Source: Sporosarcina sp. HYO08
GTDB lineage: Bacteria > Bacillota > Bacilli > Bacillales_A > Planococcaceae
Direction of reading: 5' to 3'
DNA: 64,000 nt
Assembly (NCBI RefSeq): GCF_001563475.1
Contig: NZ_LPUT01000001.1
Coordinates: 1 to 64,000, forward strand
The notes beneath the pieces were generated by a model. That model was not told the origin of the DNA and did no database searches. It was given only the letters and a program-made list of their open reading frames with translations. A program made the position numbers and the translations under genes. Below are positions 58,700 through 59,907 of this stretch, one piece after another; position 1 is the first letter of the stretch, and each line of letters opens with the position of its first letter.

Positions 58700-58727
58700 A
58701 TAGTTCTTACGATTGGCTTCATACTAT
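58700..58727 (+). promoter_or_regulatory. mother-cell sigma (SigE/SigK-type) promoter
   Basis: ATA (58700-58702), a 17-base spacer and CATACTAT (58720-58727) fit the SigE -10 CATACANT at seven of eight positions, just before the coat-like gene pair. It suggests expression during sporulation. Confidence 0.5.
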
Positions 58728-58756
58728 GCAAAATGGCAGAAGGAGGAGACGACACG

Positions 58757-59599
58757 GTGGATGCAGGGCAACAGCAACAAGATGTTCAGTCGAAAATGCT
58801 GCAAAAGCTTCAACTTCAAATACAAGAATTAGAATTACAAATACAAATGCAACAAAAAAATGAACAAGCAGCGCAACCACAGCAATCGGATGAATCAGGA
58901 CAGCCAAACCAAGATCAAAGCCAATCTTCATCAGATTCCATTTTGCAGTCACCCGAACAAATACAACAAGGTTTTACACAACCCGAGCAGCCAGGACAAA
59001 GTCAACAAGCAGGTCAGCAGTCATGTGAACAAGGAAAACAAGAAAAGCAAGGACAAGACCAAGCTGTCGGACAACAAAATGATTCTGGGCAATCCCGTGT
59101 AAATGATCAAACGAACGGAAATCCAGATCCATCGGCAGAACAATCCTCGCCAAACGAACAAACGAACAATCAAGAACAGCAGAATGATCAACAGGGCCAG
59201 AAAAACTGTCAACACCAAAGCGAAAGTGAGCAAAATGAGCAACAGCAACAGCAACAGCAACAGCAACAGCAACAGCAACAGCAACAGCAACAGCAACAAG
59301 ATCCATCAAGTGACGATCAAAACTTAAACCAGGAAAAGAAACAAGAGGAAAAAGCGGGTACTAGCAAAAAACTGCCGCTTTACTTTACACCGCCCGAAAT
59401 AATTTCGATTCAAGATATTACTTATCTAAAGGAAATGCTCTGTTTAAATGTAAATGCCATTAAACAATATCGGCAAGCGGCACAAACTTGTCAATTGCCT
59501 GACTTGAAAAATCAGTTTTCCGAAGCTGCTCAAATGCATTTAACGCACTTTAATAATTTACTACCTTTATTAAATGCGAAAGAAGGTGGATCGTCATGA
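58757..59599 (+). CDS. glutamine-rich spore coat-like protein with polyQ tract
   Basis: The 280-residue protein is dominated by Gln, Asn, Ser, Asp and Glu. After an amphipathic helix (KLQLQIQELELQIQMQQ, about residues 16-32) comes a long low-complexity region ending in 20 consecutive glutamines (59240-59299, encoded by CAACAG repeats). A folded C-terminal domain of about 70 residues follows (PPEIISIQDITYLKEMLCLN, then AAQMHLTHFNNLLPLL) that resembles the CotF-type helical bundle. The GTG at 58757 follows GGAGGAG. It overlaps the CotF-like gene by four bases, so both probably form part of the spore coat. Confidence 0.7.
   Translation: MDAGQQQQDVQSKMLQKLQLQIQELELQIQMQQKNEQAAQPQQSDESGQPNQDQSQSSSDSILQSPEQIQQGFTQPEQPGQSQQAGQQSCEQGKQEKQGQDQAVGQQNDSGQSRVNDQTNGNPDPSAEQSSPNEQTNNQEQQNDQQGQKNCQHQSESEQNEQQQQQQQQQQQQQQQQQQQQDPSSDDQNLNQEKKQEEKAGTSKKLPLYFTPPEIISIQDITYLKEMLCLNVNAIKQYRQAAQTCQLPDLKNQFSEAAQMHLTHFNNLLPLLNAKEGGSS
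59240..59299 (+). repeat. CAACAG hexanucleotide repeat (polyglutamine tract)
   Basis: Sixty bases are made of alternating CAA and CAG codons (20 codons, last two both CAA). Slippage by six bases would only change the glutamine count and leave the frame intact. Confidence 0.9.
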
Positions 59600-59907
59600 C
59601 GGCAAAGAAAATAGAAAATCCTAAAACACCATTACCAGAAAAAGCCATGCAAAATGATTATGACTTGATGAAAAATTTACTGTCCATAGAGAAATCATTA
59701 CAAGAAACGTATTTGTCAGCCATACAGCAAGTAAGTCATGAAAAGCTTTACTCCACTACATTCGCCCTATTAAAAGCCACATCCGAACAGTATCGAAAAA
59801 TTTTCGATTTAATGTTTACGCACGGTTGGGTTTCTTTAACACCCGCGCCCTCAGAAGAAGTGAAAGCTGTTAAAGAAGAGTATGAACAAATGAAGCAGCA
59901 ATTATAA
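59596..59907 (+). CDS. CotF-like spore coat protein
   Basis: The 103-residue protein has the CotF/coat-family helical bundle: ALPEKAMQNDYDLMKNLL-type start (here PLPEKAMQNDYDLMKNLLSI), then SLQETYLSAIQQVSHEKLYS and SEQYRKIFDLMFTHGWVSL. Related proteins are found in the coat or under it in Bacillus spores. It is coded in an overlapping pair with the polyglutamine protein, whose C-terminal domain it resembles. Confidence 0.75.
   Translation: MTAKKIENPKTPLPEKAMQNDYDLMKNLLSIEKSLQETYLSAIQQVSHEKLYSTTFALLKATSEQYRKIFDLMFTHGWVSLTPAPSEEVKAVKEEYEQMKQQL

Follow-up and report, generated by a model that had tools for sequence, protein, structure and literature searches.

An overlapping gene pair of probable spore-coat type in Sporosarcina with a glutamine-rich arm of variable length

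Two overlapping genes, A and B, in the window (the whole 64,000-nucleotide stretch of Sporosarcina sp. HYO08 DNA that was analysed) encode a glutamine-rich protein with a run of 20 consecutive glutamines and a small Coat_F protein (Table 1). The reading that we favour, with a probability of roughly 0.6, is that A and B are a mother-cell coat pair of the CotF type, in which the arm of A would be a length-tunable spacer or brush. The two proteins would be co-translated and expressed in the mother cell as spore-coat proteins. B and the C-terminal hairpin of A would each probably form half of a ferritin-like bundle, pairing into one coat block, and the N-terminal helix of the Sporosarcina A proteins could provide a second interaction helix at the end opposite to the hairpin. 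Between helix and hairpin, the intrinsically disordered Gln-rich arm would serve as a hydrated spacer or brush that lengthens or shortens as tandem units are gained or lost in frame (here CAACAG, two glutamines per step). Selection would keep the folded ends, and in the arm it would keep the composition (polar, Gln-rich and disordered), not the sequence or the length.

Table 1. Positions in the window of the features of the A-B gene pair and its upstream region.
Feature	Position	Strand	Basis or remark
-35-like element GTATAGT	58698..58704	+	found with a 15-nt spacing in 9/12 Sporosarcina upstream regions
-10-like element CATACTA of a putative sigma-E-type promoter	58720..58726	+	conserved in 12/12 Sporosarcina upstream regions
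Ribosome-binding site AAGGAGG	58740..58746	+	sequence; like arrangement before homologous starts in relatives
Gene A, 280-aa protein: N-terminal helix, Gln-rich arm, C-terminal two-helix hairpin	58757..59599	+	GTG start
N-terminal helix of A, residues 3-38	58763..58870	+	AlphaFold2 helix H3-38; coiled-coil-like by eye
Disordered hypervariable Gln-rich arm, residues 39-206	58871..59374	+	pLDDT; 36% Gln
(CAACAG)9CAACAA array, 20 glutamines	59240..59299	+	sequence, TRF; residues 162-181 of A
C-terminal ferritin-like two-helix hairpin of A (alignment A1)	59375..59596	+	AlphaFold2, Foldseek, genome searches
Gene B, 103-aa Coat_F protein	59596..59907	+	start overlaps A stop by 4 bp (ATGA)

Translation of A most likely begins at GTG 58757, since the homologous codon, GTG or in one case ATG, is the start in its relatives and likewise follows a ribosome-binding site; a mechanically listed ATG at 58733 lies upstream of the AAGGAGG site and is an unlikely start. 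The AlphaFold2 model of A, built on a six-row alignment (pTM 0.30), has an N-terminal helix, a disordered stretch and a confident hairpin. Mean pLDDT values for residues 1–10, 11–20, 21–30 and 31–40 are 68, 90, 92 and 79, block means fall to 40–51 for residues 41 to 210, and they reach 90–97 for residues 221–270, where the two hairpin helices (218–244 and 248–273) are located. The first 35 codons are 89.5–97.1% identical in four close species. With 82 glutamines and 20 asparagines among its 280 residues, A is Gln-rich as the earlier note had stated, but no more than mildly rich in Asn.

A Foldseek search with the A hairpin placed EncB and other encapsulated ferritins nearest among solved folds (probability 1.00, E = 0.056 or worse), and returned no solved fold with E ≤ 0.001. 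The same hairpin had been described from the sequence as a CotF-like end, which did not hold: the hairpins of the window and of G041 score 14.3 and 13.4 bits against Coat_F (PF07875), for which the cut-off is 25.7, and A is thus not a member of that family above the cut-off. Scores against the ferritin-like family DUF2383 (PF09537) were 21.9 bits for the window and 19 for G041, below a cut-off of 30.8. A profile comparison of the A end with B (alignments A1 and A2) gave a probability of 1.4%, and its failure to link the two by homology is weak evidence because the alignments, at 6 to 10 sequences, are shallow. A diiron site in A was rejected, as the E-x-x-H string, the metal-binding motif of diiron ferritin-like proteins and EncFtn, is absent from the hairpin in 12 of 12 species; in B the string occurs in 2 of 10. 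Sequence matches of A to designed four-helix bundles and maquettes (from E = 2.5e-6) were taken as a sign of helical composition and not of kinship. No Pfam or NCBIfam family scored above cut-off for the A-type members tested, which include three homologues with short leaders for Pfam and two for NCBIfam.

The partner is easier to place. B matches Coat_F with E = 1.1e-11 and 45.2 bits over the cut-off of 25.7 (residues 20–80), by which score it is a true member of the family, and the expectation of an overlapping CotF-like partner was borne out. AlphaFold2 renders it, with low confidence, as a single long helix (pTM 0.38), and the single match in a fold search (E = 4.6) is meaningless. The solved relatives of B found by sequence are three helical proteins, two YciF and one “putative structural protein”, at E = 0.022 or weaker. 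The only other Coat_F match in the genome at E ≤ 0.001 (L012, G000:C1:95312-95500; 65 bits) lies in a 340-aa frame that carries no polyQ arm. In Bacillus subtilis the cotF family comprises cotF, yhcQ, yraD, yraF and yusN (PMC3533761). Since one of these, YraF, has been called forespore-specific (PMC7352945), the family is not confined to the mother cell.

Gene coupling and co-occurrence are what point to a pairing of A with B. The 4-bp overlap of A stop and B start is found at 9 of 10 Sporosarcina loci (a count that excludes L037 and L038), and at the tenth, L004, the two genes share a single base. The same overlap is present in all 13 parsed loci of the sister genera g12 and g2 out of 17 in total; the other four (L039, L048, L053 and L055), in which B is visible, were left out of the overlap and arm counts. 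Within Sporosarcina, the genomes that carry the 74-aa hairpin domain of A are precisely those that encode B, 12 of 68. Because the pair is missing from the other 56, it is not needed for sporulation in this genus. Five weak family matches (E = 0.001–0.01, 17.5–20.6 bits) were not counted as A; four contain internal stops and the fifth lies within a 569-aa frame. A further record with the A domain (L023, NZ_JADHDX010000003.1) is titled Arthrobacter beigongshangensis and is probably a mislabelled Sporosarcina.

Across the class, the A hairpin domain was detected in 146 of 398 Bacilli genomes and 79 of 145 genera, mostly in short open frames. Fifteen of these loci were fetched, and in all 12 that lie outside the family a Coat_F-like frame follows closely downstream, as judged by eye; the one such frame that was scored (G493) reached 74.3 bits. 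A Peribacillus frigoritolerans plasmid carries the pair as a “hypothetical protein” (WP_048689407.1) beside a “spore coat protein” (WP_048689409.1). The pair is an old, widespread and ordinary module of coat type, and the expanding arm is its unusual, genus-specific part. A tree of the A hairpin has few supported forks and an unsettled bootstrap; it speaks neither for nor against monophyly of the Sporosarcina A proteins with respect to g12, and no conclusion here draws on it.

Expression in the mother cell would fit the region upstream of A, which has elements resembling the base consensus of sigma-E. The element CATACTA lies 36–42 nt before the start in 12 of 12 Sporosarcina species (single-base shuffles yield a mean of 0.06 of 12), and nine of the 12 upstream regions also have (G/A)TATA(A/G/T)T, separated from it by 15 nt on the upstream side, although the species that carry the pair are related and these counts are not independent. 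Conservation of these sigma-E-like elements across the genus agrees with the sporulation-type (SigE-type) promoter proposed earlier. Taking the -35 element as 8 bp and the -10 element as 10 bp leaves 12 bp between them. For B. subtilis, sigma-E spacing has been reported as 12 ± 1 bp, and cotF itself was placed under the control of both sigma-E and SpoIIID (PMC517825). The element is weaker in the sister genera, with CATACTA no more than 40 nt from the start in 2 of 9 g12 and 0 of 8 g2 loci; related strings, such as CACACTA, occur in several g12 loci. SpoIVA is present in 29 of 29 family genomes with A at E < 1e-6, compared with 197 of 261 overall, the 29 being 12 Sporosarcina, 9 g12 and 8 g2 genomes and thus three genera, which are not independent.

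Several genes lie close to the pair. In the window, an FtsH-like AAA protease with a Peptidase_M41 domain (56883–58631) lies directly upstream, and a small predicted membrane protein of the LLAVADAYFTDLG.. type is encoded on the opposite strand at 61869–62303. The latter is also found near the pair in L006, L009 and L011, and its presence at four Sporosarcina loci is a hint of a shared neighbourhood. Upstream of the pair in G041, by eye, the gene at L003:3-512 looks like a manganese catalase of CotJC type. In the 17 g12 and g2 loci (L039–L055), a thioredoxin-like frame (..WCPDC..) follows the pair, again by eye. An Rfam search of the window found nothing.

The run of glutamines is encoded by a hexanucleotide repeat, as the earlier note had read it: the 20 codons are nine CAA CAG pairs followed by CAA CAA. 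TRF reports a 6-bp unit in 10.2 copies with a 100% match at 59238–59298, and its score of 122 is the highest of five rows in the window, the next being 68. The string (CAACAG)3 matches in seven overlapping registers, against an expectation of 0.00 per shuffled window. Throughout the 3.05-Mb genome, all 13 overlapping matches to (CAR)8 fall inside the array, and no other run of eight Gln codons was found in the assembly. Outside the run, A uses 48 CAA and 14 CAG codons; given this mix, perfect alternation over the first 19 codons has a probability of about 1.5e-7, so that the run is a slippage-type nucleotide repeat and not a mere succession of Gln codons. Each gain or loss of the CAACAG unit changes the protein by two glutamines and keeps the frame, as had been proposed. 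Long polyglutamine tracts have been studied mostly in eukaryotes, often as causes of disease.

Comparison of the 12 Sporosarcina species reveals that A varies from 154 to 280 aa in length, with 80–206 aa before the hairpin. The longest Gln runs in the window, L003–L011, L037 and L038 are 20, 36, 12, 3, 6, 3, 11, 3, 3, 2, 3 and 4, respectively. Runs of at least eight are thus present in four of the 12 genes, including that of the window, and the remaining eight have none longer than six; the polyQ run itself is not conserved. Close species differ strongly in the arm; strains may vary in repeat length too, as the earlier note had proposed. In G041, G002 and G009 the longest Gln run has 36, 12 and 6 residues and the arm 145, 133 and 180 aa, respectively, despite hairpin DNA that is 91–93% identical and first 35 codons that are 95–97% identical. 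By contrast, G026 and G063 share one and the same hairpin, and their arms lack arrays and do not differ in length. Tandem arrays occur in 10 of the 12 genes, with best units of 6, 3, 105, 15, 27, 30, 18, 39, 18 and 12 bp. Periods are divisible by 3 in all 33 array rows from the 12 genes, although these rows overlap and coding repeats favour such periods.

Such turnover invites a simpler account, in which the arm is a passenger: DNA prone to slippage grows inside a disordered linker that tolerates it, and the resulting Gln-rich arm is neutral and without function. We regard this as a serious rival, if on balance an unlikely one. It would explain the hypervariable length and sequence of the arm and the perfect nucleotide periodicity, which points to recent slippage, and it fits with g12 doing without an arm. 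However, in none of the 12 Sporosarcina genes does the stretch before the hairpin fall below 80 aa; it is polar, has 20–71% Gln in the middle of the arm, and is built from different repeat units with no stop or frameshift. The N-terminal helix is conserved beyond the arm, and in g2 a polar arm is located on the partner B instead, two further points against a passenger.

In the sister genus g12, A has 86 aa at 9 of 9 loci and carries no arm, nor is one visible by eye on B, which means that the pair can do without it. In g2, A has 91 aa at 8 of 8 loci and again no long arm (in both genera, the start of A was placed at an M(N/G)LF or (M/V)GIFSK motif common to the loci), and B has a polar arm of 35–67 aa in the five loci measured out of eight. 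The B arm of G074 contains 46% Gln; those of the other four have 7–21% Gln and 33–50% charged residues, from which it follows that the feature shared across genera is a polar arm and not polyglutamine. An arm on B is as expected if it serves the complex rather than one chain. Elsewhere in the Bacilli, the leaders of A-type proteins are about 10–45 aa long (starts chosen by eye), and because some are already Gln-rich (L059, L067), the arm in Sporosarcina may have grown out of an ancestral leader of this kind.

The composition of the arm is also relevant to a second alternative, namely that the Gln/Asn-rich chain self-assembles as a functional amyloid or polar zipper that scaffolds the coat, with repeat length tuning the assembly. 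Runs of 20 glutamines here and 36 in G041 would suit such a role, as would a Gln plus Asn content of the middle arm of 44% in the window and 71% in G041, and the N-terminal helix could nucleate assembly. Against this, eight of the 12 genes have no Gln run longer than six, and in the 11 other species the middle arm contains 11–22% Pro (5% in the window) together with 7–23% acidic residues. The lack of long runs in eight genes and the proline content in 11 disfavour amyloid as a conserved function. We consider self-assembly quite improbable as a general explanation; for the longest arms, amyloid is possible.

Finally, the arm might act as a glutamine donor for cross-linking by the spore transglutaminase Tgl. 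A is a Gln-rich protein of coat type, and Tgl is known to cross-link coat proteins in B. subtilis (PMC6490927). However, Tgl (PF20085) is absent from this genome and from all 12 genomes that carry A; the same search recovers the B. subtilis enzyme and detects Tgl in 4 of the 68 Sporosarcina genomes, none of which has A. With Tgl in none of the A-bearing genomes, this very improbable role was rejected.

The Sporosarcina series with longest runs of 6, 12 and 36 between conserved ends would offer a natural test of the effect of polyQ length, and would bear on how spore coats gain spacers. Naming the A-type partner, present in 79 of 145 Bacilli genera, would improve the annotation of spore genes. 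A more far-reaching version, speculative and in our view rather doubtful as a whole, is that the in-frame microsatellites of Sporosarcina are a length dial on a spore-layer brush, that pure polyQ of up to 36 residues is a physiological, fast-evolving coat polymer, that a polar arm has arisen on either partner in different genera, and that the surface or coat spacing of spores varies from strain to strain, two glutamines at a time.

Among the literature matches listed, by titles or the beginnings of abstracts, no comparable glutamine-rich spore coat protein appeared; subscription journals lie mostly outside the sources covered, and this is no proof of novelty. The titles that combine “spore coat” and “polyglutamine” concern Dictyostelium, Clostridium botulinum Rho, a B. 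subtilis probiotic in C. elegans and papain-like proteinases. In the available parts of two surveys of simple-sequence and low-complexity prokaryotic proteins, spores are not mentioned (PMC1524752, PMC6821194). A proteome table for B. thuringiensis names a “repetitive glutamine-rich protein” and gives it no further description (PMC4363619).

The pair shares with the CotF family a member by Pfam score (B), a sporulation-type promoter and a small helical protein. It differs in that A lies below the member cut-off, and neither A nor B was matched to a named B. subtilis gene. The A-type protein of Peribacillus frigoritolerans has the same hairpin domain and the same gene order as the window; it is 58% identical to the G493 homologue, the query of that search, over 71% of the query. 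The A-type partners across the Bacilli, with leaders of about 10–45 aa that are sometimes Gln-rich, are set apart from those of Sporosarcina, where 80–206 aa precede the hairpin. The encapsulated ferritins EncB and EncFtn have a two-helix hairpin similar to that of A by Foldseek, and differ from it by the E-x-x-H motif that A lacks in all 12 species. Two further systems resemble A in layout, and homology is claimed for neither. GerQ has a conserved C-terminal filament core and a flexible, less conserved N-terminal region outside that core (PMC11405398), much as the N-terminal part of A is flexible, less conserved and outside the putative assembly core; it belongs to a family other than that of A, and a separate GerQ is encoded elsewhere in this genome. 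BclA, of the Bacillus anthracis/cereus exosporium, is built from a 38-residue N-terminal domain, a central repeat region of strain-specific length and a C-terminal oligomerising domain (PMC10470788), a layout that A would parallel in the way it works only, with Gln repeats and a ferritin-like hairpin in place of the collagen-like triplets and trimer domain of BclA.
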